64,000 bases of DNA. Source: Mycobacterium paragordonae (GTDB lineage: Bacteria > Actinomycetota > Actinomycetes > Mycobacteriales > Mycobacteriaceae). Location: positions 1,860,001 to 1,924,000 of the forward strand of contig NZ_CP025546.1 of assembly GCF_003614435.1 (NCBI RefSeq), given 5' to 3'. Below are positions 36,268-56,847 of the stretch, in pieces (the first letter of the stretch is position 1; every line of letters starts with the position of its first letter). The notes below the pieces were generated by a model. That model was not told where the DNA came from, made no database searches, and saw nothing but the letters and a program-made list of their open reading frames with translations. The translations under genes were made by a program, and so were the position numbers.

Positions 36268-36720
36268 ATGGGCAAATATCAGGTCGTGGTAGTCGGCACT
36301 GACGGGTCGGACACGTCGTTTCGCGCTGTCGATCGCGCCGCGGCGATCGCAGCGGAAGAAGGGGCGAAGCTGATCGTGGCTTCGGCGTTCCTCGACGAGG
36401 ACGGTGACCGCGGCGGGACCGATCCGGATCAACTGCGCACCGTGGAATACCGAACCCAGGGCAACGCGCCCGTCTACGACATGCTGCGCGCCGCCGCCGA
36501 CCGCGCCAAGGAGGCCGGCGCCTCCGACGTCGAGGAGCGCGCGGTGGCAGGTGCGCCGGTGGACGCGCTGGTGCAGCTGGCCGAAGATGTCGACGCCGAC
36601 CTGTTGGTGGTGGGCAATGTCGGCGCCAATTCGATCGTCGGGAAGGTCATCGGGTCGGTTTCGAAGGCAGTCGAACGCAAGGCGAAGACCGAGGTGCTAG
36701 TTGTCGAGACCGACAGCTGA
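36268..36720 (+). CDS. universal stress protein (UspA fold, single domain)
   Basis: The 150 residues start VVVVGTDGSDTSFRAVDRA and end with the ATP-binding GNVGANSIVGKVIGSVS (G-2x-G-9x-G-S). It is a single USP domain rather than the tandem form common in the DosR regulon. It likely responds to stress by binding ATP. Its 3' end overlaps the convergent dehydrogenase gene by 24 bp. Confidence 0.88.
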   Translation: MGKYQVVVVGTDGSDTSFRAVDRAAAIAAEEGAKLIVASAFLDEDGDRGGTDPDQLRTVEYRTQGNAPVYDMLRAAADRAKEAGASDVEERAVAGAPVDALVQLAEDVDADLLVVGNVGANSIVGKVIGSVSKAVERKAKTEVLVVETDS

Positions 36721-37779: not shown

Positions 37780-38859
37780 CTAGATGTTGAACCGGCCGGC
37801 GAATGCGCGCAGCGGCAGGTCGGCGCTGGTGAGCAGTCCCGGGGGAGCGGCGACCACCGACTTGATCGAATTCAGCGCCGGCAACCCGGTGACCGTCATA
37901 CCGATGGACGCGAAGTTGTCAGGGTTGGACAGATCGACGCCGGGCTTGGGAAAGATCATGTGTTTGTTGTAGATGCACGGGTCGCCCTTGATCTGAGTGA
38001 TGTAGCAGCCCTTGATATCCCAGTTGGGATCGGTGTGCGGGGTCATCTGCCACTCCAGATGCGTCTCGACCCGCGGCACTCCGTCCACCATGCCCTGGTA
38101 CTTGATGTAGTTACCGCCGAGCGAACCTTTCGGCAGCGTGTACCAGCCCAGGTCAACATCCTTGGTGCAGGCGCCGAGTTCGTAGTCGAACTTCACCTCG
38201 TCGAGGCGCAGGTCGAAGCAGTCGGCCATCATCAGCACGCTGTCGGCGAACACGCGCGTGTACTTCTCCAGCTTGCCCGGAATGGACGGATCATCCACGG
38301 GCAAGCCGTAACCCACCTCGATCCAGGTGTCCTTGGAGTGATGGCACGACACGTCGACCGACTCGATGGTGGTGACATTCTCGATCTCGGCCACATCGGC
38401 CGAACACACCACGCCGAGGATCTGGTTGACGCCGGGGTTCATGCCCGTCCCGTAGAACGTCGAGCCGCCCTTCGCGCAGGCCTCGGCCAGTAGCTGGGTG
38501 ACCGGTTTGCCGGAGTGGTGCGGATGGTTGCGGTCGCGGTGCCAGCCGGTGATCCAGTCCGCGGTGGTGACGATATTGATCCCGGCCTCAAGCACTTTGA
38601 CGTAGAGGTCCTCGTCGGGGAACACGCCGTGAAATGTCAGCACATCGGGCTTCGCGGCGATGATCTCCTCGACGCTGCCGGTCGCCGTGACGCCGTTGGG
38701 CGCCAGTCCGACCAGCTCGCCGACGTCGCGGCCGACCTTCTCCGGTGAGTAACAGTGCACCCCAACGAGTTCCAGGTCGGGGTGGGTGGCGATGCGCTTG
38801 ATCATCTCGGAACCGACATTGCCGGTGGCGACCTGGAAGACCTTGATCGGGGGCGTCAT
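37780..38859 (-). CDS. DapB-like NAD(P)-binding dehydrogenase
   Basis: The 359-residue product starts MTPPIKVFQVATGNVGSEMIKR. FYGTGMNPGVNQILGVV parallels GSGLNPGNLSGVL in its neighbour, so the two are paralogues. It is translationally coupled to the Rieske oxygenase (ATGA overlap). Its role could be to process an oxygenated intermediate; this is inference from context. Confidence 0.77.
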   Translation of the reverse strand: MTPPIKVFQVATGNVGSEMIKRIATHPDLELVGVHCYSPEKVGRDVGELVGLAPNGVTATGSVEEIIAAKPDVLTFHGVFPDEDLYVKVLEAGINIVTTADWITGWHRDRNHPHHSGKPVTQLLAEACAKGGSTFYGTGMNPGVNQILGVVCSADVAEIENVTTIESVDVSCHHSKDTWIEVGYGLPVDDPSIPGKLEKYTRVFADSVLMMADCFDLRLDEVKFDYELGACTKDVDLGWYTLPKGSLGGNYIKYQGMVDGVPRVETHLEWQMTPHTDPNWDIKGCYITQIKGDPCIYNKHMIFPKPGVDLSNPDNFASIGMTVTGLPALNSIKSVVAAPPGLLTSADLPLRAFAGRFNI

Positions 38860-39884
38860 GGCTGTGCCTTTCCGGAGCGGCTGAGTTCGGCGGCGGTGCC
38901 GCCCTTTCCATCGGGGTAGAACTTCTTGGCCCAGTTGCGGATGGCGGTGAAGCCCGCGTACTCCGCGTTCGCTAGTGCCGGCGGGTCGGAATACCGCTGG
39001 TGCGCCCAGATGTGCACGTCCTGGCTGAACTGCCGGATTACTTCCTCACCGAACATGCGGGCCTTGTCTTGAGCCCTTTCGTCGTCACGGCCCGGGACGC
39101 GGCCGATGTAGACCATGAACCGGACGTCGGACGTGCGCTCGTCGACCGGCGTGATCGCCGAGATGGTGCGGTTGTCGACCATGCCCCAACTGCGGGTGAC
39201 GGCCACCCCGAGTCCGCCGTTGATCGCCTCGACGCCGCTGCGGACATCCTCGATGCTCTGTTGGTCGTCGCCCTCGAAGGTGATGGTGAAGTCGACGTAG
39301 GACACCGGGTCGTCGAAATCGTGCCGGGTGAAGATCGGCACGATGGGCGTGTTGTGGACGTACTTGAAGTGGGCGAAGTCCACTCCGTTCTCCAGCACGT
39401 ACTGCGGGTGCAACTCCAGGCCCTGCCGGAACAGCCGCTGCTGCGGGTAGTAGTCGGCCGGCTCACGACCGTCGGTGAAGTCGGCGAAGATGTCGGGCGC
39501 GTCGAAAAACGGTGCGCGGCCTTCGATGTCGTGCCAGATGTAGACCGACTCATTGCGCTCAACCACCGGATAGGTGCGAATGCGGCGGCCCTTGTTGGGG
39601 CGGTCCTGATACGGGATGCAGACGTTGCGGCCCTCCCGGCTCCACTGCCAGCCGTGGAACGGGCACTGCAATACCTCGCCGACCACCTTGCCGCCGTAGC
39701 CCAGATGAGCGCCCAGATGCTCGCAGTACGCGTTCATCACGGTGATCTGTCCCGAGTCGGCGCGCCAGGCGACCATCTCCTGGTCGAAGTACTTCATCGT
39801 GTGGACGTCGCCGATGCCGATCTCGTCGGACCACGCCACCTGGAACCAGCCGGTGGGTTTCATCGACAACGGCGGCTTCGCCAT
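38856..39884 (-). CDS. Rieske-type ring-hydroxylating oxygenase (KshA-like)
   Basis: The 342-residue product starts MAKPPLSMKPTGWFQVAW. The Rieske [2Fe-2S] site is C-E-H...C-P-F-H-G-W, and the mononuclear iron site lies in NGVDFAHFKYVHN. Sequence style matches the KshA-like oxygenases of actinobacteria that hydroxylate steroids and related polycyclic substrates. A ferredoxin reductase is not in the window. It is the first gene of a three-gene operon divergent from a TetR, with a palindrome between. Confidence 0.85.
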   Translation of the reverse strand: MAKPPLSMKPTGWFQVAWSDEIGIGDVHTMKYFDQEMVAWRADSGQITVMNAYCEHLGAHLGYGGKVVGEVLQCPFHGWQWSREGRNVCIPYQDRPNKGRRIRTYPVVERNESVYIWHDIEGRAPFFDAPDIFADFTDGREPADYYPQQRLFRQGLELHPQYVLENGVDFAHFKYVHNTPIVPIFTRHDFDDPVSYVDFTITFEGDDQQSIEDVRSGVEAINGGLGVAVTRSWGMVDNRTISAITPVDERTSDVRFMVYIGRVPGRDDERAQDKARMFGEEVIRQFSQDVHIWAHQRYSDPPALANAEYAGFTAIRNWAKKFYPDGKGGTAAELSRSGKAQP

Positions 39885-39918
39885 ACACACGGTCCTCTCG
39901 ATCCGATCATCAAGCACT

Positions 39919-44511: not shown

Positions 44512-44751
44512 ATGCTTCCGACGGTGTCCACCTTCAAGCGCTACCTCGTCATCCAGGCGATGGTGTTCGTGTGCGGCATCGTCGGCCCGATCTTCCTGAT
44601 CATCTTCTTCTCTGCCCCAACGGATCCGCAGATGAAGTGGGCCTACTGGTGGGGCCTTGTCATCACGTACATCGACATCATGATCGCGATCGGGATCACG
44701 GCATCCACCGAGGAGAACACCCGCGCTCAGGTGCCACAGAAGGTTCGGTAG
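44512..44751 (+). CDS. small two-helix membrane protein
   Basis: The 79 residues start [17 protein letters not shown] and have two membrane segments ([33 protein letters not shown]), with a charged C-terminus. Function unknown. The last 25 bp overlap the convergent selO gene. Confidence 0.65.
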
Positions 44752-46181
44752 ACGCCGAAGTCGGTGGGCGCCGGCGATGCATACCGCTGCAGCCCGGGCC
44801 GCTCGGTGTACGGCGCGCTGACCGCCTCCAGAAGTTGAGCGAGCGGGCCGAGGTCACCATCGGTCGCGGCGGTCAGCGCCTCCTCGACGAGATGGTTACG
44901 CGGGATGTAGATCGGATTGACGCGGTCCATCGCGTCGGCGTCCGGTCCCAGGGCCCGCCAGCGCCGCGCCCAGTCGTCGAACCGGGCGGGATCGACGAAC
45001 TGTCCCCGGGCCGGTTCGTCGTCGCCTCGGGCGGCCGTGGCCAAATGCCGGAAGAACGAGGTGAAGTCGACGTGGCTCTCCTGCAGCATGGGCAGCAATT
45101 CGTCGAGCAACGGCAGGACGGCGTCCACGTCGGTGGCCACGCCGAGCTTGGCGTGCATACCCGCAAGCCACGCGGAGTGGTAAGCGTGGAATCCGTCGAA
45201 GGCGTGCTCTATCAACGCAATTGACTCGTTGACGTCGTCGCCCAGCAACGGCAGCAGCGTCTCGGCGAACCGGGCCAGATTCCAGGCGGCGATCGTCGGC
45301 TGATTGCCGTAGGCGTAGCGGCCCCAGGCGTCGATCGAGCTGAAGACGGTGTCCGGGTCGTAGGCCTCCATGAACGCGCACGGCCCGTAGTCGATGCTCT
45401 CGCCGGAGATCGTCATGTTGTCGGTGTTCATCACCCCGTGGATGAACCCGACCAGCATCCAGCGGGCCACCAGCGACGCCTGCGCCGCGACGACGGCTTC
45501 GAACAGCGCGAGGTAGGGGTTCTCGGCGTGCGCCGCCTCCGGATGGTGGCGGGCGATGGCATGGTCGGCCAGTCGGCGCAGCAGGTCGAGATCACCTGTG
45601 GCAGAGGCATATTGGAAGCTACCCACCCGAAGGTGGCTGCTGGCGACGCGGACCAGCAACGCGCCCGGCAGCATCGTCTCGCGGGCCACCGGTCGCCCGG
45701 TGGCCACCACGGCCAGCGACCGGGTCGTCGGAACCCCGAGCGCGTGCATCGCCTCGCTGATGATGTACTCGCGCAACATCGGCCCGATGGCCGCCAGGCC
45801 GTCACCGCCACGGGCGAACGGTGTGCGCCCGGAACCCTTCAGGTGCAGATCGCGCAACCGCCCGTCGGCATCGGTGAGCTCGCCGAGCAGCAGGGCGCGC
45901 CCGTCTCCCAACCGCGGCACGTAGCCACCGAACTGATGCCCGGCGTAGGCCTGGGCCACCGGCGCGGCGCCGGTCGGCACCAGGTTGCCCACCAGGAACC
46001 GCAGGCCGTCAGGGCTGCCCAGCCAACTCGAGTCCAGACCGAGCTCATCGGCCAACGGCTCATTGAGCACCAGCAGCCGTGCCTCGGGCGGCACTTCCGC
46101 CTGCCACGGAACCGCCATCTCGGGTAGTTCGCTGGCAAAGCGGTTCTGCAGGGTGATGGTGATGTCGGGGGTAACGCTCAC
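44727..46181 (-). CDS. selO: SelO/YdiU pseudokinase AMP-transferase
   Basis: The 484 residues show SelO signatures: [59 protein letters not shown] and [20 protein letters not shown] (metal and catalytic loop). SelO binds ATP upside down and transfers AMP to protein Ser/Thr/Tyr residues, linked to redox stress. It ends in FCGT, with a cysteine at the site where animal SelO has selenocysteine. Confidence 0.93.
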
Positions 46182-46201
46182 TTGTCACACACTACGGAGA
46201 A

Positions 46202-46345
46202 TCACCCGTCCTCGTTGATGGCCAAACCTTCCGGCGGAGGCGTGGAGTACGCGGGGTAGGCAGGCGGCGACACGATGCTGTCGTCGCCGTTCTCGCTGTC
46301 CTGGTCCTGAGTTTGCGGGTCGTTCGGTTCCTCGGGGTGGCTCAT
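46202..46345 (-). CDS. 47-residue acidic Pro-rich protein
   Basis: The frame begins ATG at 46345 (MSHPEEPNDPQTQDQDSE) and ends at TGA 46202. It lies 7 bp downstream of the hemerythrin gene on the same strand, so cotranscription is likely. Low complexity, strongly acidic and disordered (Asp/Glu/Gln, then Pro/Tyr). Coding support comes from position and codon bias only. Confidence 0.5.
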   Translation of the reverse strand: MSHPEEPNDPQTQDQDSENGDDSIVSPPAYPAYSTPPPEGLAINEDG

Positions 46346-46352
46346 GGGTCTC

Positions 46353-46919
46353 CTAGCTGACGGCTTGCTTGATCAGGTCACGCGCGCGGTCGAGCATCGA
46401 CGCGAACGGGCCGACGGCAAAGTTCAACTTGGCCGATTCCACGCCGGCGTGCGGCCGGGTCGGTGCGATGGCTTCGGCAAGTTTCACCGCGGTTCCCATC
46501 CGCTTGAGTTCTTCGGGGCCCATGTCGGCCTGCAACTGCTCGAACTCTTCGAGTTCCTCATGCTCAGCGTGGGCCAGCACGGCTTCCCGCAGCTTCGTCA
46601 ACTCGTCGATGAACTCCTGCGAGGTGATGTCGAGCCCTTCGATCTTCGACAGCTGCTCTTTAGCGGAGTGCTCCTCGGCCAGCAGGCTGTCGACGATCGC
46701 GTCGCCCGAGTCGACTTCGCGCCGCGCGCGCGGGTGCACAAACATCTCCTCGGCGGTCTCGTGCACTGCCAGCAGTTGACGCAACTCGATGAACGGCTTC
46801 TCGCGGGCTTGCGGATCCGTCGCGAGCAGCACCTGGTCGAACATGTCCTCGATCAGGTCGTGCTGGGCTTTGAGGAAGGCGATGACCTCTTCGGGCGTTT
46901 CAACAATCATTTCGGACAT
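46353..46919 (-). CDS. hemerythrin HHE-domain protein
   Basis: The 188-residue helical protein carries diiron ligands His in AQHDLIED (about 20), AVHETAEEMFVHP (two His and Glu), AEEHSAKE and AHAEHEELEE. Hemerythrin-like HHE proteins of mycobacteria sense or bind oxygen or NO, and some modulate SigF-type stress responses. Cytosolic. The acidic 47-residue gene follows directly. Confidence 0.87.
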   Translation of the reverse strand: MSEMIVETPEEVIAFLKAQHDLIEDMFDQVLLATDPQAREKPFIELRQLLAVHETAEEMFVHPRARREVDSGDAIVDSLLAEEHSAKEQLSKIEGLDITSQEFIDELTKLREAVLAHAEHEELEEFEQLQADMGPEELKRMGTAVKLAEAIAPTRPHAGVESAKLNFAVGPFASMLDRARDLIKQAVS

Positions 46920-47006: not shown

Positions 47007-47786
47007 CTAAAACTCCGGGCGGTGTGCAACCGGGCGTAGTTCAACCAGGCGTTTCACGTCGTCCAGGTCGTACGGTGCGCGCAGGCCGAGGATCAGGTGC
47101 TCGGCGCCGGCTCCGACCAGTGACTCCATCAGGGCGGGGTCGGGGCGCTCGATCCACACGGTGCGTTCGATCTCGCGCGGGTCGCGCCCGACCTCGTCGC
47201 ACCACCGGTCGATGACCAGGTTCTTGGCCCGGATCGTGGCGGCGTCGCCGTAGCCGTTCCACATGTCGGCGTGCTGCGCAACCAGACGCAGCGTGCGCCG
47301 TTCCCCGTTGCCGCCGATCAGGATCGGCAACGGGCCGAGTGGTCCCGGCTGCAACAGGGCCAGGCGCCGGCGAATGCGAGGGAGCGCCTCGGCGAGCAGG
47401 TCGAGTCGTTGCGCGGGCGTGCGCACCGGGTAGCCGTATTCGATTTCGTCCTTGTCCATCCAGCCCGACCCGATGCCCAATACCGCTCGGCCCCCGGACA
47501 GGTGGTCGAGGGTGCGGGCCATGTCGGCCAGCAGGTCGGGGTTGCGGTATCCGCACCCGGTGACCAGCATCCCGATCTGGGACACGTTCGACGCGGTGAC
47601 CGCCATCGCGGCCAGGATCTGCCAGCCCTCGAAATGCGCCTCGTCCGCGGCTCCGTACAGCGGCGGGAAGAAGTGATCCCACGTCCACAGGCTGTCCACG
47701 CCGAGTTCGTCGACCGCCTGCCACGCCGCCCGCAGGTCGGCCATGGTCGTGTTCTGCGGATGTATCTGAACGCCGATCTTCACCAT
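47007..47786 (-). CDS. LLM-class F420-type oxidoreductase, last gene of the NorQD operon
   Basis: The 259 residues start MVKIGVQIHPQN. Luciferase-like barrel: DSLWTWDHFFPPLYG, VTGCGYRNPDLLADMARTLDHLSGGRAVLGIGSGW and PILIGGNGERRTL, typical of F420-dependent enzymes. It begins 11 bp after the stop of the 134-residue membrane-anchored gene on the same strand, so it is the likely distal member of the TetR-controlled NorQD operon. It may supply or use redox equivalents for the system; this is inference. Confidence 0.82.
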   Translation of the reverse strand: MVKIGVQIHPQNTTMADLRAAWQAVDELGVDSLWTWDHFFPPLYGAADEAHFEGWQILAAMAVTASNVSQIGMLVTGCGYRNPDLLADMARTLDHLSGGRAVLGIGSGWMDKDEIEYGYPVRTPAQRLDLLAEALPRIRRRLALLQPGPLGPLPILIGGNGERRTLRLVAQHADMWNGYGDAATIRAKNLVIDRWCDEVGRDPREIERTVWIERPDPALMESLVGAGAEHLILGLRAPYDLDDVKRLVELRPVAHRPEF

Positions 47787-47797
47787 CGGCTCGAAAT

Positions 47798-48202
47798 CTA
47801 CCGGTGCTGCTGAGCCTGCCGGGCAATCCGTTCGTCGTGGATCCGGACGAGTTCCCGGAACCCGAGCCGGTGGTATTTCGGTACCGGCTGGATTCCCCAC
47901 ACGTCGCGTGCGGTGTCCTTGCCGGCGACGCCCTCCGGCGGTCCGAGCGGTGGGTAGGGATACTTGCACTCCAAAGTGTCATCGGAGTAGCGCACTTTCA
48001 GCAGTTCGCTGCAGATCTCGGTGAGACTCAGGGTCGGGTATCCGTAGTAGACGGCCATGAAAGGCAATGTGAACGCGCCCTCGATGACCAGCGCCACCAG
48101 GCACACCAACACCGCACGCTTGATCCACTTGTGCATGCGCGCGTAATAGGCGGTGGTGCCCGGGGGCAGGTCTTCGGTTCGGTCTTCAGCTGGTGTCGTC
48201 AT
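47798..48202 (-). CDS. membrane-anchored 134-residue protein in NorQD operon
   Basis: The product has a cytosolic N-terminus, one membrane helix ([23 protein letters not shown], about 27-49) and an extracytoplasmic domain of about 80 residues with two cysteines ([22 protein letters not shown]) probably forming a disulfide. [25 protein letters not shown] follows. No family is recognised. It lies 12 bp after membrane protein 1 on the same strand. By layout it could be an anchored subunit facing the outside, like the small subunit of a membrane oxidase. Confidence 0.72.
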
Positions 48203-48214
48203 CGTCCGGTCCTG

Positions 48215-48925
48215 TCAGTCGGTGAAGATTTCGCGGTTGACGGTGTGGAGGTAGGGGATCGCCAGAAAGGGTGTGATGTAGAAGATGTCGTACAGCCACC
48301 AGCCGATGACCGGGAACACGACACCGGCGTACCGCACATCGGCGTACATGGTCATGTTGAAGACGTAGGCCGTCCAGATCACCACGCCCATCCAGCAGGT
48401 GACCACCATCCACTGGTGTCCCCAGCGCTTCATCTGCAGGAAGCCGATGGCCGCCGCCACCCGCATCGAGAAGACGGTGAGGATAAGCCCTGCCACATAA
48501 GCCTTTTCGCCAGGGCCGGCGGCACCACCGACCCACAGCTCGTTGTAGTGCCAGAAGTAGCCGGCGTCGAACATGTTGCCCCAGCCGACCATCAGCACCC
48601 GGTTGATCAGAGTGTGGTTGGCGACCAGGTCCAGCGCCCAGCCGAGGCTGTTGAGGCAGCCGTCGATCAGGACCAGGTAACCGATCAAGGTGACGATCAT
48701 GGGCCGCACCGCAAGGCCGGCGCGTAATGCCTGGCGCTGCAACCAGACTCCACGCATGAAGATAGGAAAGCCGATGACGCCCGGCGCCCACATTCCCATC
48801 AGCGCGGCTCCGGCAATCATCCACTTGTCAGCCCGCCGCTGCGCGTCGCGGGACGCCTCCTCGTGGTCGGTGGGATCGGCGGCGGGTGAATTGCTCTGCA
48901 GCGATGGTTGATTCACAACTCCCAC
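48215..48925 (-). CDS. polytopic membrane protein 1 (MP1), duplicated, unknown
   Basis: The 236 residues have about six hydrophobic segments. Conserved between MP1 and MP2 are LIGYLV, GWALDLV-NHTL, GWGNMFDAGYFWHYNELWVGG (acidic and His residues inside a membrane segment), MKRWGHQW, FNMTMYADVR and PYLHTVNREIF. Four His plus Asp/Glu recur in both copies, which would suit metal binding. GTG start; a second GTG three codons on overlaps the 42-residue gene stop. I do not recognise the family: it is not NorB, PmoA/PmoC, AlkB or AveC by the motifs I know. Confidence 0.78.
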   Translation of the reverse strand: MGVVNQPSLQSNSPAADPTDHEEASRDAQRRADKWMIAGAALMGMWAPGVIGFPIFMRGVWLQRQALRAGLAVRPMIVTLIGYLVLIDGCLNSLGWALDLVANHTLINRVLMVGWGNMFDAGYFWHYNELWVGGAAGPGEKAYVAGLILTVFSMRVAAAIGFLQMKRWGHQWMVVTCWMGVVIWTAYVFNMTMYADVRYAGVVFPVIGWWLYDIFYITPFLAIPYLHTVNREIFTD

Positions 48926-49041
48926 CAGCCACGCGCAACGGACATATACAGCTGAATGGCGAACATCACCAGCAGGTAGCCGTAAATGAACAGCTGAAAG
49001 ACGATCAGCGCCCTCTTGCGTTTACGCTCCTGTTCGTTCAT
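48913..49041 (-). CDS. 42-residue single-helix microprotein in NorQD operon
   Basis: The frame from ATG 49041 follows GAGAGGAG. It encodes a basic cytosolic tip (MNEQERKRKRA), one membrane helix (LIVFQLFIYGYLLVMFAIQL) and a tail ending RGWWEL. It sits between the NorQ-like and MP1 genes and overlaps MP1. With the 32-residue protein it shares a Trp-Trp-Glu-Leu signature (WWEL), here at the C-terminus and there at the N-terminus. Confidence 0.68.
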   Translation of the reverse strand: MNEQERKRKRALIVFQLFIYGYLLVMFAIQLYMSVARGWWEL

Positions 49042-49053
49042 GTCTCGCTCCTC

Positions 49054-49827
49054 TCAGTGCAGGCTGGCGGCCGCGATTTCACGCAGTCCCTCGGCGATGG
49101 CGCCGTCGGTGCTCAGCGGCGCGAGAATGCAGGCGTGCGCCGCGTCCGTCTCGGAAGCTCCCGATGCGATCAACTTCGCCGCGGTGACCAGAACCCGGGT
49201 GGACGGTGGCTCGAAATGGAAGATGTCGTCGGCTTGGCGGATAGCTATGGCACAGTGCACAAGTCGTTGTGCGACAGCCGCGTCGACACCCGATTCTGCG
49301 ACGATGACGGCCGCTTCGCGGTCGGCCGGCAGATAGGACATGGGCAGCGTGGCGAAGCGTTGCCGAAACGACGGTTTGAGATCTTTGAGCGAGCTGCGGT
49401 AGGCGGGGTTGTAGGAGCAGACGAGCATGAATGAATCCGGCGCTTGGACGACTTCACCCGCGCGGTCCAGATAGAGAGCGCGGCGGTGATCGGTCAGAGA
49501 GTGCAGAATCGCCAGTGAATCGTGGCGGGCTTCCACGACCTCGTCGAGATAGCAGAGGGCGCCGTCTTTGACGGCTCTGGTCAGTGGACCGTCCGTCCAC
49601 ACCACATCGCCTCCGGTCACCATGAACCTGCCGACCAGATCCGAACTCGTCAGATCGTCGTGGCAGCTGATGGTGACGACCGGCCGGCCGAGGAGTGCCG
49701 CCATGTGCTCCACCAACCGCGTTTTCCCGCAACCGGTAGGTCCGGTGAGCATGAGCGGGATCATCTGCCGGTACGCCTGCTCGAACAGCCGCACTTCGTT
49801 GCCGCTGGGCACGTAGCCGTCGGTCAT
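49054..49827 (-). CDS. NorQ/CbbQ-type MoxR-family AAA+ ATPase
   Basis: The 257 residues have Walker A GPTGCGKT at 29-36, Walker B LCYLDE at 91-96, CHDDLTSSDLVGR at 55-67 (the NorQ/CbbQ signature) and KPSFRQRFATL (arginine finger region). NorQ/CbbQ hexamers work with a VWA partner (NorD/CbbO) to open a client and insert or activate its metal centre. The ATG overlaps the VWA stop (ATGA). The usual clients are absent, so this pair probably serves the membrane proteins beside it. Confidence 0.92.
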   Translation of the reverse strand: MTDGYVPSGNEVRLFEQAYRQMIPLMLTGPTGCGKTRLVEHMAALLGRPVVTISCHDDLTSSDLVGRFMVTGGDVVWTDGPLTRAVKDGALCYLDEVVEARHDSLAILHSLTDHRRALYLDRAGEVVQAPDSFMLVCSYNPAYRSSLKDLKPSFRQRFATLPMSYLPADREAAVIVAESGVDAAVAQRLVHCAIAIRQADDIFHFEPPSTRVLVTAAKLIASGASETDAAHACILAPLSTDGAIAEGLREIAAASLH

Positions 49828-51341
49828 GCGGCAACCAACTCACGATGAACATGGGCCAGCACGCGCGGAAGTTCCTCGACGCGCCGGATACGTTGCGAGC
49901 GAAGCGGTCCGAACACCTCCGGCAGAGGGTCGACCCGGGTCGGCCCGACGCCCACGTAGTACACGGACACGCCCGCGTCGCCGGCCTCGTCGACCGCGTG
50001 CGCGACGTCGGCCCACGCGTAGCTGCCCTCGTAGCCCTCATCGGACATCAGACCGTCACCGAGCACGATGAGCAGGCGTCGTTCAGCGGGTTGCTCGAGC
50101 AGCCGACTGGTCAGGTGACGTATGGGCGCGCCCAGCCTGGTGTAGCCGCCGGTCGTCAGGCCGGCGCCTCCCGGTGCAATGAACCGCCGCTCCGGAAAGT
50201 CCTTCAGACAGCGCACTTCCACGTAATGACGGCCGTTTCCGGTGAACACGAAGATCCCGTGCCGTTCGCGCGCGTCGGTCATCGCCCGCGACAGTGCGTC
50301 GGCGCAGTCCAGCTCCAGCCGGAATGTGCGGCCGCCGTGCACGCCCAGGGACATACTCCCGTCCAGGAGCAGCGCGGTGGCAACATCGCGACCGGCGGGT
50401 GCCAGCTCTCGAAAGATGCGGGGCGGGAATGCTTCTCCGGCCTTGGTGTCGACGTGATAGCGGACGTACGCGTCGACGTCGATGTCGGATCCGTCTTCAC
50501 GGCCGTTGGCCATGGCGCGATGGGTTTGTTCCTCGAACCACTTGCGAAGGTCGGCCGGGACGGGGTTGGGCCGGCGAACGGGCACCCCGTGCCTGCGCTC
50601 GACAACCGCCACATGGTCGGACAGAAAGCTCTTCGTCCAACAGTTCCACTCGGGGTAGGGAATGCCCTGTCTGCGTTCGGGACTGACATCGAGATCGTTG
50701 TCGTCGGGTCTGCTGGGCGGCGGCAGATTGGGATTGCGTACGCCGCCCTCGCCACCGACCGGCACCGAGTAGGGACGGGGACGGCGCTTTTGCGTTGTGG
50801 TCCAGGGCATTCGGCCACGCCGGCGGATGGCGGAGGTCCACCCGCGCTGCTCGAGGCGGGCAGCCGGCAGACTCCCGAGCAATGGGTGCTCGGGCAGATC
50901 TGTCCGGGCACGCGCTAATTCGATGGCGCGGTCGAGCATGACGGCCGCGGCCGTGTCGGCCGCGATGATGTCCACATCGGGAATCGCACGCCTTGTGTCA
51001 CACAACAGTCCGGGCCACCGAGAGGCGATCCATCCGAGTGCGACGCCCGCCTCGACGAGGGTCAGCGCGCGTCGTTCCCGCGGCGACAACTCATGCAGAC
51101 GGTACGCGGCGATGCGTTCCTTCGACGGCGAACATTGCAGTGCCACTCCGCATGTCAACGTTCGACGGGTCCAGTGCGGGTCGGCCGCGGGGTAGGGCAC
51201 GTGCACAACGCGCAGGCCGGCGTCCAGTCCGAAGCCGCGCTTGGCACCGGTGGTCAACCGCGCGTCTGCTCGGCGCCGTTCGCTCAAGGCGACAGCGGTC
51301 AGTGCGCAGCTGCGTTCGATCGAACCTGCGGTGGTCTCCAC
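49824..51341 (-). CDS. NorD/CbbO-type VWA-domain protein
   Basis: The 505 residues start with GTG, 4 bp after the 32-residue gene; no strong ribosome-binding site, so coupling is likely. The N-terminal half is helical. GIPYPEWNCWTKSFLSDHVAVVERR near 226-250 is the NorD-type YPEW signature. The C-terminal VWA domain has an intact MIDAS DGSMS at 327-331, TTGGYTRLGAPIRH and LIVLGDG. NorD binds the client and links it to the NorQ ring. Confidence 0.9.
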   Translation of the reverse strand: METTAGSIERSCALTAVALSERRRADARLTTGAKRGFGLDAGLRVVHVPYPAADPHWTRRTLTCGVALQCSPSKERIAAYRLHELSPRERRALTLVEAGVALGWIASRWPGLLCDTRRAIPDVDIIAADTAAAVMLDRAIELARARTDLPEHPLLGSLPAARLEQRGWTSAIRRRGRMPWTTTQKRRPRPYSVPVGGEGGVRNPNLPPPSRPDDNDLDVSPERRQGIPYPEWNCWTKSFLSDHVAVVERRHGVPVRRPNPVPADLRKWFEEQTHRAMANGREDGSDIDVDAYVRYHVDTKAGEAFPPRIFRELAPAGRDVATALLLDGSMSLGVHGGRTFRLELDCADALSRAMTDARERHGIFVFTGNGRHYVEVRCLKDFPERRFIAPGGAGLTTGGYTRLGAPIRHLTSRLLEQPAERRLLIVLGDGLMSDEGYEGSYAWADVAHAVDEAGDAGVSVYYVGVGPTRVDPLPEVFGPLRSQRIRRVEELPRVLAHVHRELVAA

Positions 51342-51345
51342 TTTT

Positions 51346-51444
51346 TCAGAAGGTGCCGATGTTGGAGAACATCCAGTACCAGAACCAGATGATCAGGCCG
51401 GTGCCGCCCCACGCGGCGACATACCGGAGAAGTTCCCACCACAT
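51346..51444 (-). CDS. 32-residue single-helix microprotein in NorQD operon
   Basis: ATG 51444 follows GGAGG with seven-base spacing, a strong translation signal. The product is MWWELLRYVAAWGGTGL followed by IIWFWYWMFSNIGTF, a Trp-rich single membrane helix. It lies 11 bp after MP2 and 4 bp before the VWA gene. Too short for standard gene calling, but the signal and operon position make it credible. Confidence 0.72.
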   Translation of the reverse strand: MWWELLRYVAAWGGTGLIIWFWYWMFSNIGTF

Positions 51445-51455
51445 GAATGACCTCC

Positions 51456-52193
51456 CTAGTCGGAGAAAATCTCCCGATTCACGGTGTGCAGATAAGGAAT
51501 CGCCAGAAACGGCGTGATGTAGAAGATGTCGTAGAGCCACCACCCGATGACGGGGAGTACGACACCGGCGAAGCGCACGTCGGCGTACATGGTCATGTTG
51601 AAGACGTAGCCGATCCAGATCACCACACCCATCCAGCAGGTGACGATCAGCCACTGATGGCCCCAGCGCTTCATTTGGAGAAACCCGATCCCGGCGGCGA
51701 TACGCATGGTGAACACCGTCAGGATCAGCCCGACTTCCCAGCCCTTTTCGCCCGGGCCGGCTGCACCGCCCACCCACAGTTCGTTGTAGTGCCAGAAGTA
51801 GCCGGCGTCGAACATGTTGCCCCAGCCGACCAGCAGTACCCGACCTAGCAGGGTGTGGTTGCCGACCAGATCCAGCGCCCAGCCCACCGTGTTGATGGCA
51901 GCGTCGATGATCACGAGGTAGCCGATCAACGTGATGATGACGGGTCTAACCGACAGTCCCTGCCGTGCGGCGCGTCGTTGCAACCAGACTCCGCGCAGGA
52001 ACAGCGGAAGGCCGAAAACGCCCAGTGCCGCAGTGCCTATCAGCAGGCTGCCGCAAATGAGCCACCGGTCGGCCTGACGCTGCGCGACGCTGGACCGCTC
52101 GGCATGCTCGTCGAGGCTGAGTGCGCGATCGCTGCCGGCGCCGGAGCGCCCAGGCGCGCGCAGCTTCGGAATCCGATTCGAGGTCAGATTCAA
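51456..52193 (-). CDS. polytopic membrane protein 2 (MP2), paralogue of MP1
   Basis: A TTG start at 52193 is favoured since GGGAGGGA lies just upstream; a GTG at 52259 is the longer alternative (267 residues). From RQADRWL onward it matches MP1 closely, and GWGNMFDAGYFWHYNELWVGGAAGPGEK is identical. Cytosolic N-terminal tails differ. It is first gene of the operon, behind an operator-like repeat at 52267. Paralogues flanking the NorQD genes suggest a heteromeric complex or two substrate variants. Confidence 0.76.
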   Translation of the reverse strand: MNLTSNRIPKLRAPGRSGAGSDRALSLDEHAERSSVAQRQADRWLICGSLLIGTAALGVFGLPLFLRGVWLQRRAARQGLSVRPVIITLIGYLVIIDAAINTVGWALDLVGNHTLLGRVLLVGWGNMFDAGYFWHYNELWVGGAAGPGEKGWEVGLILTVFTMRIAAGIGFLQMKRWGHQWLIVTCWMGVVIWIGYVFNMTMYADVRFAGVVLPVIGWWLYDIFYITPFLAIPYLHTVNREIFSD

Positions 52194-52266
52194 AGGTCCC
52201 TCCCGAGATGCGCCCGGAACGTCGGCTCCGACGGTCGCGTGGCGTGTCGAGCTTGGCACGCTTCAC

Positions 52267-52278
52267 TGACTTGAGTCA
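52267..52278. promoter_or_regulatory. operator-like repeat upstream of MP2
   Basis: TGACT-TG-AGTCA is a perfect 5-bp inverted repeat 74 bp before the preferred TTG start (8 bp before the GTG alternative) of MP2. A related repeat lies upstream of the TetR gene at 52965, suggesting one regulator for both. Confidence 0.55.
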
Positions 52279-52320
52279 ATAACCGAGGGCACGCCGCGGT
52301 GGCCGGACCCCACGTCGAAA

Positions 52321-52935
52321 TCAGGCTGAGGGTCCCGGAGCGACCAAGCTCCACATCGTCCTTTTCACGTAGTCCTCGACCATGGCGTCGCGCACCGGCC
52401 AACCGGTCGTGGTGGTCAGTAACGCATACAGTCCGAGTAGGAAGAACACGGCACTGTTGATGGGGTTGACATCGGGATCGACTTCGCCGCGTTGTTGAGC
52501 GGCTTCGATTTCGTGTGCGACAGCAACGATGATCGGGTGGTCCCGGCCGACTTCGGCGGGCGGGCGGGTCTGTGAAAAATGCAGTGCCAGAAAGTTTTTG
52601 AACAGTGCGACGCCCAGACGACGCTCGAGCCCGACTATCAGGCGGACGGACTCGCGTAGGGCGCCGGCAAGATCATGCTCCGATTCCAGGAAGCGGGCGA
52701 ACCTGTCGGCGATGCGCTGCTCTTCACGCTGTTCGAGTTCCAGCAGCACATGTTCTTTGGTGGGGAAGTGAAAGAAGAACGTGCCGTGTGCGACGCCGGC
52801 GGCGTCCACGATGGCGCCGACGTCCGCGTCGGCCATGCCCGTCCGCTTGAACTCGGCCACGGCGGCACCCAGCAGCCGCTCTCTGGTCTGCAGGCGCTTG
52901 GACTCGCGCGCTGAAAGGCCCTTGACCGCTGTCAT
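52321..52935 (-). CDS. TetR-family regulator of the NorQD operon
   Basis: The 204 residues contain the HTH at about 38-64 (ADVGAIVDAAGVAHGTFFFHFPTKEHVL) and a long helical ligand domain. Same strand as MP2, about 60-130 bp upstream of it. An ACTGA-TT-TCAGT repeat sits in its own promoter and a related one before MP2. It is the likely repressor of the unit; the inducer is unknown. Confidence 0.82.
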   Translation of the reverse strand: MTAVKGLSARESKRLQTRERLLGAAVAEFKRTGMADADVGAIVDAAGVAHGTFFFHFPTKEHVLLELEQREEQRIADRFARFLESEHDLAGALRESVRLIVGLERRLGVALFKNFLALHFSQTRPPAEVGRDHPIIVAVAHEIEAAQQRGEVDPDVNPINSAVFFLLGLYALLTTTTGWPVRDAMVEDYVKRTMWSLVAPGPSA

Positions 52936-52964: not shown

Positions 52965-52976
52965 ACTGATTTCAGT
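52965..52976. promoter_or_regulatory. operator-like repeat upstream of the TetR gene
   Basis: ACTGA-TT-TCAGT is a perfect 5-bp inverted repeat 30 bp before the TetR start, followed by CAGTCA. It resembles the MP2 upstream site TGACT-TG-AGTCA. It abuts the stop codon of the arsenite transporter gene. Confidence 0.5.
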
Positions 52977-54073
52977 CAGTCAACGATACCTGCGTCGGGG
53001 TCCCGCAGCGGGAAGCGCCGACGCAGCGCCAGCGACACGAAGACCAAGGCCACCAGCACGGGCACTTCGATCAGAGGTCCGACGACACCGGCGAGGGCTT
53101 GCCCGGAGGTGGCGCCGTAGGTGGCGATCGCGACCGCGATGGCCAGTTCGAAGTTGTTGCCGGCGGCGGTGAAGGCGAGTGTGGTGGTGCGTTCATAGCC
53201 CAAAGCCAGGGCCGCGCCGAGAAGGTAGCCGCCGCCCCACATGATGGCGAAGTAGGCCAGCAGCGGCAGGGCGATGCGTGCGACGTCCAGAGGTCGGTTG
53301 GTTATCTGTTCGCCTTGCAGCGCAAAGAGAATGACGATGGTGAACAGCAGGCCGTACAGGGCCCACGGGCCGATGGCCGGCAGGAACCGGGTCTCGTACC
53401 AGTCGCGCCCCTTCGCGCGTTCGCCGAAGCGGCGGGAGAGGTAGCCGGCCAGCAAGGGAATGCCGAGAAAGATGACTACGGACTTCGCGATCTGCCACGG
53501 TGAGGTTGAGATCGATGTCTGGGGCAGGCCCAGCCAGCCCGGCAGGACCGACAGGTAGAACCAGCCGAGGACGGCGAACATCAGAACCTGAAAGATCGAG
53601 TTCAGGGCGACGAGCACGGCGGCGGCCTCGCGGTCGCCGCAGGCGAGATCATTCCAGATGATGACCATGGCAATGCAGCGCGCCAGTCCGACGATGATCA
53701 GACCGGTGCGGTATTCGGGCAGGTCCGGCAGCAGCAACCAGGCGAGGGTGAACATCAGCGCAGGACCGAGGACCCAGTTGAGCAGCAGGGAGCTGACCAG
53801 CATCCGGCGGTCGGCGGTGACGGTGTCGAGGCGGTCATAGCGCACTTTGGCCAGCACCGGGTACATCATGACGAGCAGCCCAAGCGCTATCGGAAGCGAA
53901 ATACCGTCGATCTGAACCTTTTCCAGCGTGGTGTTCAGCCGCGGAATCCAGCGGCCGAGCAATAGGCCGGCGGCCATGGCGATCCCGATCCACACCGGGA
54001 GGAATCGGTCGAGGGTGGATAGTTTGGCGACGACTGTCGTGTCGGACTCGGACGGTGCGGTCGCATCGCTCAC
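52976..54073 (-). CDS. acr3: ACR3-type arsenite efflux transporter
   Basis: The 365 residues have about ten membrane helices. The conserved Cys133 in VGLARCIAMVIIWNDLACGD is the As(III)-binding residue of Acr3 family carriers. It exports arsenite using the membrane potential. A GTG start overlaps the arsR stop (GTGA). Unlike M. tuberculosis Rv2643, the reductase is not fused; arsC is separate at 56351. Confidence 0.93.
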   Translation of the reverse strand: MSDATAPSESDTTVVAKLSTLDRFLPVWIGIAMAAGLLLGRWIPRLNTTLEKVQIDGISLPIALGLLVMMYPVLAKVRYDRLDTVTADRRMLVSSLLLNWVLGPALMFTLAWLLLPDLPEYRTGLIIVGLARCIAMVIIWNDLACGDREAAAVLVALNSIFQVLMFAVLGWFYLSVLPGWLGLPQTSISTSPWQIAKSVVIFLGIPLLAGYLSRRFGERAKGRDWYETRFLPAIGPWALYGLLFTIVILFALQGEQITNRPLDVARIALPLLAYFAIMWGGGYLLGAALALGYERTTTLAFTAAGNNFELAIAVAIATYGATSGQALAGVVGPLIEVPVLVALVFVSLALRRRFPLRDPDAGIVD

Positions 54074-54444
54074 GCTGGTGCTCCTGAATATGTGTTGTCG
54101 TGGACAGCGAGGGCTGCCGACAAGACGCGAACCGCCTCAGGTACCACTGCGTAATACACCCAGGATCCGCGGCGCTCCGATGTCAGCAATCCGGCGTCGC
54201 GCAGCACCTTGAGGTGGTGCGAGATGGTCGGCTGCGAGACGGTGACACCTGCGGAGATGTCGCAGACGCAGGACTCGCCGCCGGCGCGGCTTGCGATGGC
54301 GCTGAACAACTGGAGCCGCACCGGGTCGGCGAGAGCCTTGAGTTGCACCGCGATTTCGGCCGCCGCCTCGGCCGACAGCGGCTGAGCGAGCAGCGGCGTG
54401 TTCGTGCAGTGACTTTCGGTGGCCGGCGAACGTGATTTCGACAC
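54070..54444 (-). CDS. arsR: ArsR-family arsenic-responsive repressor (Rv2642-like)
   Basis: The 124 residues use GTG 54444; codons further upstream cover the promoter. The winged helix includes the metal site GESCVCDI (CxC at the DNA-recognition-helix front, the classic ELCVCDL position) and VSQPTISHHLKVLRDAGLL. It should release DNA on As(III)/Sb(III). Coupled to acr3. A possible site with TCGATATTGACA lies just before its start. Confidence 0.9.
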   Translation of the reverse strand: MSKSRSPATESHCTNTPLLAQPLSAEAAAEIAVQLKALADPVRLQLFSAIASRAGGESCVCDISAGVTVSQPTISHHLKVLRDAGLLTSERRGSWVYYAVVPEAVRVLSAALAVHDNTYSGAPA

Positions 54445-54497
54445 TGGTCGATATTGACAGGCATCGAATCTCAGGACAAGTCCAGCCCCGCCTTGGC

Positions 54498-55448
54498 TCA
54501 ACGGTTGTTCTGCCGCGGAATTCCGCCGCGCAACAGTTGATGGGTGGTGGCCGTGGCGGTCTTCAGCCACAGCCGCAGCAGGTGCCGTCGGCGCGAGAGA
54601 TCCTCGGCATCGGTGTAGGCCTCCCGCGAGTGCAGCACGACGGCATTGTTCAGTAGCTGAACATCGCCGGGCTCGAATCGCATCTCGATGTGGAAGGCAG
54701 GATCGTTGGCGATGGCCTCAACGAGATCCAAAGCCGCGCATTGATTCTCGGTGAGTCTCGGTGCGCCGGGATGACGCTGCGAGTCCCGGATGTACCAGGC
54801 GATGAAGAACAGTCGCGGCGTCCCGTTCAGGTCCGTGATGGGTGGCAGCTCGAAGAACGGCGGTTCGCCGGCGCCCTGCTCCCCGTTGCGGTCCCACGGC
54901 ATCGACTGGTACATCACGTCGACCAGATGCGGTGCGCGCCGCAACATCTCGTTGTACACGGCGTGTGCGCTGACGATCCTGGACTCCCCACCCGACTGCG
55001 CCGGGTGCAGGCACAACAGCCCGACGAGGTCGGAGCCGTCGCTGTGGAAGTCCTGGCGCAGGTTGGTGCGGTACTTGCGCACGCCCGGGGCGGCGGGTTG
55101 GCGTTCGTCCCGGATATGGGTGAGGACGCTGGCGTCGCGGTCCTGGCCGACCGGCTCACCCAGCAAGCGGCCGAGACCCAGGTAGGCCAGCTCGGTCTCG
55201 GCTTCGGTGAGCAGCTCGATCGGAAACTGGCGCAGTCGCACGAAACCGGGACCGTGGGTCAGCAGTTCCTCCCAGCGCCGCGCGGCCTCGCCGAAATGGC
55301 GGGTGAGATCTGTGAACTCACCTCCGCGCCCGTAGCTAGCCAATGCCCGCCGATCTGCCGGGGAGAGGTCGAACGACCAGAGCGACTCGTCGGGGAAGTC
55401 GCCGGGCGTCCATACCGACGGTGCGTGTACGCCGACCGCCGACCTCAC
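54498..55448 (-). CDS. TauD/TfdA-type Fe(II)/2-oxoglutarate dioxygenase in arsenic operon
   Basis: The 316 residues start at a GTG overlapping the cadI stop (GTGA). The facial triad is H-S-D in QDFHSDGSDLVGLLCL and the distal His in NAVVLHSREAYTD, with a terminal RRRHLLRLWLK Arg for 2-oxoglutarate. It is placed between cadI and arsR/acr3, so it is expressed with arsenic resistance. The substrate is unknown: an organoarsenical is an attractive guess but not shown. Confidence 0.85.
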   Translation of the reverse strand: MRSAVGVHAPSVWTPGDFPDESLWSFDLSPADRRALASYGRGGEFTDLTRHFGEAARRWEELLTHGPGFVRLRQFPIELLTEAETELAYLGLGRLLGEPVGQDRDASVLTHIRDERQPAAPGVRKYRTNLRQDFHSDGSDLVGLLCLHPAQSGGESRIVSAHAVYNEMLRRAPHLVDVMYQSMPWDRNGEQGAGEPPFFELPPITDLNGTPRLFFIAWYIRDSQRHPGAPRLTENQCAALDLVEAIANDPAFHIEMRFEPGDVQLLNNAVVLHSREAYTDAEDLSRRRHLLRLWLKTATATTHQLLRGGIPRQNNR

Positions 55449-55879
55449 TGCACCCCCACCTCGGCACCACAGCAACGGGCTCCTTCGGCAACCGGCTCGG
55501 GTGCGAAGAAGGTTTCTGAATCGGCCAGCTTGGTGTAGATCTCCCAGCGGTGTCCGCCGGGGCCGTTCACCCACACCTTGTCCTGGGTGGCGAAACAACA
55601 GGTGGTGCCCATCTCCTCCTGCGTGAACAAGCCCTCGGCGCTGAGGCGCGCGATCTCGGCGTGCACCTCGTCACTGGAATCCACTTCCATCCCGAGGTGG
55701 TTGAGCGTGCCGCCCTGGCCTGGGTTCTCCAGCAGGACGAGCTTCAGCGGCGGCTCTTCGATGGCGAAGTTGGCGTAGCCCGGTTTGACCTTGGCGGGGG
55801 AGGTGTTGAACAGCTTGGAATAGAACGCGATGGCCTCGTCGAGGTCATCGACGTTGAGGGCCAATTGAACACGGGACAT
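55445..55879 (-). CDS. cadI: CadI/ArsI-type VOC metalloprotein
   Basis: The 144 residues start MSRVQLALNVDDLDEAIAFYS, which closely resembles M. tuberculosis CadI (Rv2641) as I recall it. The vicinal pair Cys94-Cys95 (GTTCCFATQDKVWV) is the thiol site that holds trivalent arsenicals in ArsI C-As lyases; His61 and Glu113 are likely iron ligands. A second CC lies at 136-137. It may cleave methylarsenite or bind Cd/As. Induced by Cd or As in M. tuberculosis. Confidence 0.9.
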   Translation of the reverse strand: MSRVQLALNVDDLDEAIAFYSKLFNTSPAKVKPGYANFAIEEPPLKLVLLENPGQGGTLNHLGMEVDSSDEVHAEIARLSAEGLFTQEEMGTTCCFATQDKVWVNGPGGHRWEIYTKLADSETFFAPEPVAEGARCCGAEVGVQ

Positions 55880-55902
55880 GGAATGCCTCCTGACAACCTT
55901 TG

Positions 55903-55961
55903 CGACATATGTCGAACTAATCGGATAGAGCACAGCATGCCACTTTTTCGATATATGTCAA
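55903..55961. promoter_or_regulatory. two ArsR operators in divergent promoter
   Basis: Site 1 at 55903-55914 is the perfect 12-bp palindrome CGACATATGTCG. Site 2 at 55947-55961 is TTCGATATATGTCAA, a near-palindrome of the same type. They lie between cadI (start 55879) and the divergent arsR (start 55983), fitting control of both by the ArsR repressor encoded there. Confidence 0.75.
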
Positions 55962-55982
55962 ACCTTCTGGCATGATGGAGTC

Positions 55983-56342
55983 ATGCCCAAGGCGCTACCG
56001 GTGATCGACATCTCCGCGCCGGTGTGTTGTGCACCGGTGGCGGCAGGAGTGATGAGCGACGACGACGCGCTGCAAATCGCGCTGCGACTCAAGGCGCTGG
56101 CCGACCCGGCGCGGGTGAAGATCATGTCGCTGCTGTTCGGCGGCGCCGCGGACGGATGCAACAGCGGGGAGCTGGCGGTTGCGATCGGGGTGGGCGAGTC
56201 CACGGTCAGCCATCATCTGAACCAGTTGCGCAATGCGGGTCTGGTCGAGTCCACCAGGCGCGGCACGAGCGTGTACCACCGCCCGCATCGGGCCGCGGTG
56301 GCCGCACTGGTCGGTGTGCTCGACCCGAATTGCTGTTCCTAG
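55983..56342 (+). CDS. arsR: ArsR-family repressor (Rv2640c-like)
   Basis: The 119 residues have winged helix GESTVSHHLNQLRNAGLV. Cysteine pairs lie at the N-terminus (PVCCAP, 15-16) and C-terminus (PNCCS), with one Cys in DGCNSGEL; this arrangement differs from the other ArsR and suits a separate As/Cd sensor. It is divergent from cadI and flanked by the two operators. Confidence 0.9.
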   Translation: MPKALPVIDISAPVCCAPVAAGVMSDDDALQIALRLKALADPARVKIMSLLFGGAADGCNSGELAVAIGVGESTVSHHLNQLRNAGLVESTRRGTSVYHRPHRAAVAALVGVLDPNCCS

Positions 56343-56350
56343 AACAGCTT

Positions 56351-56761
56351 TCAGGTTCCTGCGGGCAGCAGCTCGGCGATGAGATCTTTGACGCGGGCCC
56401 GGATCTCATCGCGGATGGGCCGTACCGCTTCCACGCCTTTGCCGGCCGGATCCTCGAGCACCCAGTCGCGGTAGCTCTTTCCCGGAAAGAACGGGCAGGT
56501 GTCACCGCACCCCATGGTGATGACCACATCTGAGGCCTGCACCGCGTCGGCGGTCAGGATCTTGGGGTTTTCGGCGGAGATGTCGATGCCGACCTCAGCC
56601 ATGGCCCGCACCGCGGCGGGATTGACCGCATCGGCCGGCGCACTGCCCGCCGAACGCACCTCGATGGCGTCACCGGCCACCGCCGCGAGGAACCCCGCGG
56701 CCATCTGGGAGCGGCCGGCGTTGTGGATGCAGACGAACAACACGGAAGGTTTGGCGCTCAT
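56351..56761 (-). CDS. arsC: arsenate reductase, LMW-phosphatase type
   Basis: The 136 residues start MSAKPSVLFV. The phosphatase loop is CIHNAGRS (Cys11, Arg17), with further Cys85 and Cys89 in TMGCGDTCPFF and the catalytic Asp in LEDPAGK. It reduces As(V) to As(III), in actinobacteria with mycothiol/mycoredoxin or thioredoxin, feeding Acr3. It is convergent with the second arsR, 8 bp apart. Confidence 0.9.
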   Translation of the reverse strand: MSAKPSVLFVCIHNAGRSQMAAGFLAAVAGDAIEVRSAGSAPADAVNPAAVRAMAEVGIDISAENPKILTADAVQASDVVITMGCGDTCPFFPGKSYRDWVLEDPAGKGVEAVRPIRDEIRARVKDLIAELLPAGT

Positions 56762-56847
56762 CGGGGCCACCATATCGGTTGCGCCGCCACCGGCGCGTGC
56801 CGTGCGGCGCGCGTCCGAGATACTCGGTGGGTGACGGGAATCGGCGG

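Follow-up and report, generated by a model that had tools for sequence, protein, structure and literature searches.

A mycobacterial gene set with a NorQ/NorD pair that may mark a new membrane enzyme

Organization of the locus

The window analyzed here is a stretch of 64,000 nucleotides from Mycobacterium paragordonae. All the open reading frames named in an initial annotation of this DNA were recovered on the minus strand, in the order and with the lengths it gave. The first gene encodes a TetR-type regulator (52321..52935; PF00440, E 6.9e-11). It is followed by the membrane subunit MP2 (51456..52193), a 32-residue microprotein, m32 (51346..51444), a NorD-like VWA protein (49824..51341), a NorQ-like MoxR AAA+ ATPase (49054..49827), a 42-residue microprotein, m42 (48913..49041), the MP2 paralog MP1 (48215..48916) and a 134-residue protein, P134 (47798..48202). 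The core gene order is intact in 78 of 80 related loci and the other two are cut; these loci are the best 80 of 343 matches and are mostly close kin. The conservation of the gene set, its order and its small reading frames is beyond chance. A census of neighboring genes relied on mechanical calling of long reading frames in GC-rich DNA; some of these calls are spurious and most of the 80 loci come from close relatives, so its counts were set aside as evidence.

Two starts deserve comment. MP1 had been started at GTG 48925, giving a 13-bp overlap; GTG 48916 is the more probable start because its GTGA shares 4 bp with the m42 stop and homologs mostly begin with MN. For MP2, the sequence favors TTG 52193, which follows GGGAGGG, over GTG 52259 as the probable start.

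An LLM-class F420-type oxidoreductase gene lies at the end of the array (47007..47786, minus strand; TIGR03856, 306 bits). Its start is probably ATG 47786; counted from the listed 47969 it would overlap the P134 gene. The initial annotation placed it in the operon, but only 25-38% matches to it occur, in 9 of the 80 loci, so that it is a local neighbor outside the conserved module and was dropped as a candidate subunit.

A TetR homolog (at least 55% identical, same strand) is found upstream of MP2 in 75 of the 80 loci, and within 400 bp of it in 38 of those 75. A predicted operator, TGACTCAAGTCA, a TGACTnnAGTCA site without assigned strand, precedes MP2 at 52267..52278. In 57 of the 80 loci a palindrome of this type lies close to the first MP gene, as against 2.8% of 2000 random 340-bp windows from the same loci, figures to be read knowing that the pattern was picked after viewing the window and that the loci are kin.

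The NorQ/NorD pair

NorQ is an ATPase of the ring-forming type, paired with the VWA protein NorD; the two form a chaperone pair of the kind known for metal insertion. To our knowledge such pairs are proven for few clients. That the pair at this locus is genuine, as initially claimed, is borne out by several lines of evidence. NorQ has Walker A (GPTGCGKT) and Walker B (LCYLDE) motifs and the CbbQ/NorQ C-terminal domain (CbbQ_C), matches PF07728 and PF08406, and has Paracoccus NorQ as its best solved match (E 1.3e-77; CbbQ, E 1.6e-68). Residues 217-505 of NorD, the VWA part, match solved structures by phmmer (E 5e-31), no solved match being found for residues 1-216; the Pfam VWA score, 22.4 bits, is slightly under the cut-off of 23.8. 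NorD has MIDAS-type residues (DxSxS-T-D): D327, S329 and S331 are present in every row that covers these positions (80 of 81, the remaining one having a gap) and T401 and D429, whose probable assignment to the MIDAS is our own, in 81 of 81.

The pair resembles that of the Paracoccus denitrificans cNOR system, where NorQ matches over nearly its full length, NorD has a VWA domain with MIDAS-type residues, and norQ/norD likewise adjoin a gene for an integral membrane protein. The partners differ, being NorB/NorC in cNOR but MP1/MP2 and small subunits here, as does the unmatched first part of NorD. No norCB client genes were found among the nine locus proteins scanned. CO dehydrogenase and RuBisCO, initially described as not present, are indeed missing from the window but do occur in the genome, at C1:828796 and C1:4297443.

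The membrane proteins and small subunits

In Pfam and NCBIfam, MP2, P134 and m32 gave zero rows at E 1. MP1 had a single NCBIfam row (E 0.1) and m42 had three rows (E at least 0.04), all of them at chance level. With nothing above chance level, assignment to a known mono-oxygenase, transporter or oxidase family was dropped. A PDB profile search with 137 MPs returned a single chance row (E 0.58). MP2 forms a clade with support 98/94 in a tree that sampled every third of the 80 loci and in which the row L068_MP2 is a mislabeled MP1 from a cut contig.

The closest predicted fold of MP1 is that of EBP, and the model has the features of the EXPERA fold. EBP, a human sterol-processing enzyme, is a non-redox sterol isomerase. 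Passages of one study hold that it acts through acidic residues at 80 and 108 (PMC4263179). These map at a constant offset of 12 to MP Asn92 and Asp120; at this offset there are four position matches to EBP catalytic residues, which 5% of random sets also reach. The MPs nevertheless stand apart from the EBP/EXPERA superfamily (EBP, TMEM97, TM6SF): they lack a sequence-profile match to it, they differ at most catalytic positions, Glu80 being replaced by Asn, and they sit in a multi-gene operon with NorQD. PF05241 did not match MP1 or MP2 at E 1. It also had no match at E 0.001 in any of 198 genomes of the phylum, including the window's own, so bacterial PF05241 proteins could not serve as a bridge to EBP.

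Across 137 MP homologs several acidic residues are almost absolutely conserved, and the set Asp88/Asn92/Asp120/Glu140 is near-invariant. The initial annotation had argued for a metal site from histidines, but none is invariant in these homologs: H126 is present in 47, H170 in 32 and H227 in 115 (Tyr in 19). A histidine metal site as a family-wide trait was therefore abandoned.

The microproteins, candidate single-helix subunits, are real genes, as had been supposed. m32 has a pN/pS of 0.11 in 79 loci and m42 of 0.21 in 80 loci, both without internal stops, and the m42 stop codon keeps its position in 80 of 80. P134 has an N-terminal helix, which contains Glu41, and a domain with Cys64 and Cys79; All 81 rows have Cys34, Glu41 and His24, and 80 of them have Cys64 and Cys79. 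By eye, a distant version (L176) has Gln in place of Glu41. In another locus (L126) m32 appears, also by eye, to be fused to the P134 helix (weak HMM matches, E 0.27 and 0.49).

Distribution and genomic context

MP genes are found in 164 of 297 sampled Mycobacterium genomes. The initial annotation made its reading depend on whether MP homologs occur without NorQD, and the answer is divided. The MP-associated NorQ class goes with MP genes in 24 of 25 genomes versus 0 of 16, a count in which 4 of 25 NorQ genes are unjudged, the MP rows of their genomes not being among the matches listed. Distant MP subfamilies, however, have no adjacent NorQD. One Mycobacterium genome on a single contig (G662) carries two distant MPs but gives no match to NorQ. 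A copy on an M. branderi plasmid is not accompanied by NorQD, and NorQ has no match anywhere on that plasmid. Steroid/lipid genes lie near several MP copies, a selected view since the 10 neighbors scanned were hand-chosen from three distant loci (9 had a match, L168:5927-6943 had none). Near the M. branderi copy are genes for a mycofactocin-coupled SDR, a GMC protein and an aldehyde dehydrogenase.

A second mycobacterial NorQ class has an AveC-like (PF17198) membrane protein gene within 5 kb in 46 of 47 cases, a count that omits the second pieces of two frame-split NorQ genes (G420, G426) as well as every row below 90 bits. AveC-like genes, like MP genes, have their own NorQD. A single family is not supported: PF17198 does not match MP1 or MP2, hhalign gives 2.5%, and EBP and TMEM97 are absent among the 50 matches listed for the AveC-like model.

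Functional predictions

The gene set may mark a new membrane enzyme. We tentatively propose, at close to an even chance, an inducible membrane enzyme complex with its own maturation machine, whose substrate would be hydrophobic and would probably resemble a sterol or steroid. MP1 and MP2, of predicted EBP/EXPERA-like fold, would make up the core, probably pairing with each other, and m32, m42 and P134 would each contribute a single transmembrane helix. NorQ and NorD would dock from the cytosol, the NorD MIDAS probably on the MP C-terminal tail, opening the core so that a cofactor could enter, the likeliest being a metal ion bound by Asp88/Asn92/Asp120/Glu140. The complex would modify its substrate within a catabolic pathway, with expression presumably controlled by the TetR repressor. 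A bolder version, possible though doubtful, is a membrane metalloenzyme of a new class, built on the EBP fold. In it MP1 and MP2 would form an obligate heteromer, microprotein helices would complete the active site, a dedicated NorQD pair would grip the MP tail while loading metal, and sterol-like substrates would undergo chemistry unlike that of any known enzyme of this fold.

Alternatively, MP could be an EBP-type enzyme that works by acid-base catalysis without a metal (an isomerase of sterol double bonds, a cyclase or a dehydratase) and that NorQD only remodels or reactivates, as CbbQO does RuBisCO. The predicted EBP fold, the steroid-type neighbors, the lack of an invariant histidine and the offset-based placing of Asn92/Asp120 at EBP residues 80 and 108 (PMC4263179) suit this alternative, as do the AveC-like neighbors of the other NorQ class, AveC being described in passages of one paper as catalyzing spiroketalization and dehydration (PMC13303154). 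We nonetheless think it rather unlikely: the catalytic Glu80 position is Asn in the MPs, PF05241 does not match them, and in the membrane-bound case that has been studied NorQD supplies its client with a metal (PMC13036017). The small subunits and chaperone pair tell in the same direction, for EBP itself, as far as we know, requires neither.

Iron insertion by NorQD (PMC13036017) would accord with a membrane mono-oxygenase or other redox metalloenzyme, in line with the oxidoreductase initially suggested, making an alcohol for neighboring dehydrogenases to oxidize, of which those beside the M. branderi copy are examples. Such enzymes serve many pathways, however, that copy lacks NorQD, and MP1 and MP2 have neither a Pfam or NCBIfam mono-oxygenase match nor an invariant histidine, which makes this improbable. 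Least credible is a non-enzymatic, TMEM97-like protein that binds lipids or sterols as a receptor or helps to import them, given the near-absolute conservation of acidic residues and the dedicated AAA+ maturation pair.

Were the proposed complex confirmed, it would be a second kind of NorQD membrane client, showing what the machine recognizes in general and tying it to sterol-enzyme-fold proteins. Two unannotated microproteins would gain a function, and a membrane step in the breakdown of steroids or lipids by actinobacteria could be identified. With the AveC-like class as a parallel case, a single genus offers two tests of the client question.

Relation to published annotations

No paper joining NorQD with MP-type membrane proteins was found among the leading literature matches. 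EBP-like genes have been noted twice in passages of published work: a genomic island of Mycobacterium UM_CSW with three EBP-like proteins, a TetR gene and a probable cholesterol dehydrogenase (PMC4818103), and an actinobacterial Pfam survey that records PF05241 in Mycobacterium and Nocardia (PMC9903846). Those passages do not mention NorQD, small subunits or a complex. Since UM_CSW carries this operon (locus L044) and three such proteins are named in its island, the 'emopamil-binding protein' genes of UM_CSW, and those of the survey, are probably the MPs described here.

The operon and its conservation

On the minus strand of the window, from 52935 to 47798, lie genes for a TetR regulator, MP2, m32, NorD, NorQ, m42, MP1 and P134, in that order, and an F420-type gene comes next after P134 on the same strand, as the initial annotation had described. 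MP1 and MP2 are paralogous membrane proteins (MP denotes either one or a homolog), m32 and m42 are predicted single-helix proteins of 32 and 42 residues, and P134 is a 134-residue protein with an N-terminal helix and a Cys-bearing domain. We regard this operon as a NorQD module whose client would be of a new type. The literature yielded family-level notes alone, namely a report of EBP-like proteins from UM_CSW (PMC4818103) and a mention of PF05241 for Mycobacterium (PMC9903846), and none of the papers listed combined NorQD with these membrane proteins.

In a domain and motif scan, NorQ matched AAA_5 and CbbQ_C, and its Walker motifs are intact; its nearest solved relative is Paracoccus NorQ (E 1.3e-77; CbbQ, 1.6e-68). 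NorD bears the sequence DGSMS (327-331) in a VWA domain, and T401 and D429 probably complete the MIDAS. Its residues 217-505 align to solved NorD (E 5e-31), and residues 1-216 had no solved-structure match. MP1, MP2, P134, m32 and m42 gave nothing above chance-level rows in Pfam and NCBIfam.

Named genomes gave 343 places that encode an MP, and conservation was analyzed in the best 80 (79 from mycobacteria and one from Aldersonia). The order MP2-m32-NorD-NorQ-m42-MP1-P134 is full in 78 of these loci; the other two, L019 and L068, are truncated at contig ends. The F420-type gene, taken initially for an operon member, has matches of only 25-38% in 9/80 loci and drops out of the set. A same-strand TetR homolog is found upstream in 75 loci (38 at ≤400 bp from MP2, 35 at 400-2500 bp, two beyond) and was absent from the upstream stretch in five. 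Close to the first MP gene, 57/80 loci have a palindrome of the type TGACTnnAGTCA, versus 2.8% of random windows, although the pattern was picked on the window itself and the 80 loci are kin; it is likely an operator. Both small genes lack internal stops, with pN/pS of 0.21 for m42 (80 loci) and 0.11 for m32 (79 loci). In P134, His24, Cys34 and Glu41 are unvarying in 81 rows, and Cys64 and Cys79 in 80; by eye, Gln replaces Glu41 in a distant relative (L176).

SelO and hemerythrin-type genes come after the operon (44727-46919, minus strand), as they do in M. asiaticum locus L005. On its other side is an arsenic-like gene set (52976-56773) with an ACR3-type transporter and ArsR-like regulators, both assigned by eye, LMWPc-type and VOC proteins, and a TauD-type dioxygenase in its midst.

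Two NorQ classes with different membrane partners

Is MP the client of NorQD? In 41 Mycobacterium genomes, 72 NorQ genes were kept at >90 bits, 25 in the window's class and 47 in another. An AveC-like gene (PF17198 membrane protein family) lies within 5 kb of NorQ in 46/47 of the other class versus 0/25 of the window's class. Of the 25 window-class genes, 21 could be judged from the MP matches listed, and all 21 have an MP within 5 kb. The window's class is present in 24/25 MP-positive versus 0/16 MP-negative genomes, the one exception (G397) being a fragmented assembly with a partial MP. Each NorQD class therefore has its own membrane partner family, and these separate partners are the strongest evidence that MP would be a client of NorQD. 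The initial annotation had also noted that no CO dehydrogenase or RuBisCO client is present; both are encoded elsewhere in this genome, outside the window, so their absence from the window is no argument against NorQD service in trans.

The window has an AveC-like gene of its own (27798-28583, plus strand; PF17198, 271 bits), 20 kb from its single NorQ, that of the MP operon. In L005 a second-class NorQD pair takes the place of the F420 gene, between the operon and the SelO/hemerythrin-type genes.

Distribution and duplication of MP

MP matches occur in 164/297 genomes of the genus Mycobacterium (a few of them distant or partial), 24/394 of the class (5/137 genera) and 9/396 of the phylum (3/236 genera). 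Distant MPs, of about 34% identity, come from sources such as Sporichthya and a Mycobacterium branderi plasmid. L118 has m42-, m32- and P134-like genes, MP, NorD and NorQ in a single run, and L176, from a different class, has m32- and P134-like frames with MP, NorD and NorQ. NorQD was not found in the stretch surrounding MP in seven distant loci (L115, L116, L117, L126, L168, L169 and L170). Six of these have m42- and P134-like frames ahead of MP, several with weak E-values; in L169 neither was seen there. The single-contig Mycobacterium genome G662 encodes two distant MPs and gave no NorQ match. NorQD thus goes with the main clade of MPs and with two further lineages, but not with all MPs. 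One protein in L126 seems to combine m32 with the helix of P134 (by eye; HMM E 0.27 and 0.49), which hints that the two may touch directly.

L124 and L125 are additional single-MP operons (m32, m42, MP, P134) that lack NorQD, in genomes that carry it elsewhere; an AveC-like gene lies near L124.

A tree was built from 61 rows, taking every third locus of the 80 together with the window and six single-MP rows. In it, MP1 and MP2 form separate clades (100/99 and 98/94) and single-MP operons fall outside. On this topology, MP1 and MP2 stem from one duplication with both copies retained, which suggests that they may form a heteromer.

Proposed mechanism

We infer each step of what follows: repression, assembly, docking, opening, metal and substrate. 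TetR would hold the operon repressed until freed by a hydrophobic inducer. The MP core would come together with its small helices, and NorQD would dock on the cytosolic tail and open the core to a cofactor through an ATP-driven twist like that put forward for NOR (PMC13036017). The cofactor is probably a metal, held by a set of Asp, Asn and Glu residues, and the finished complex would work on a sterol-like molecule. A serious rival is that MP is an isomerase that works without metal, because the MP fold, predicted for MP1 to be that of the sterol isomerase EBP, and the absence of an invariant His both favor it.

Steroid and lipid genes near MP

Neighbors of distant MP loci were scanned in a hand-picked selection. 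A KshA-type Rieske gene comes after MP in L168. In L176 the genes found less than 7 kb from MP include MlaE, MlaD-Mce4-type and P450 genes, and those of L170, at up to about 7 kb, include genes for a thiolase, a P450 and an acyl-CoA dehydrogenase. Within 10 kb of the M. branderi plasmid MP are annotated a GMC oxidoreductase, an aldehyde dehydrogenase, a mycofactocin-coupled SDR, a thiolase with an OB-fold partner, and AMP-binding and Rieske proteins. In the window, a KshA-type Rieske gene lies 8 kb from the operon. These gene neighborhoods point to a probable role in catabolism of steroids or related lipids.

Two DapB-like reductases adjoin the KshA-type Rieske protein in the window (36697-39917, minus strand), and DapB-like genes often neighbor the MP operon in other mycobacteria too. 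The window also encodes an MPAB/Lcp-type (rubber-oxygenase-like) protein (30870-31778, plus strand; PF09995, 214 bits).
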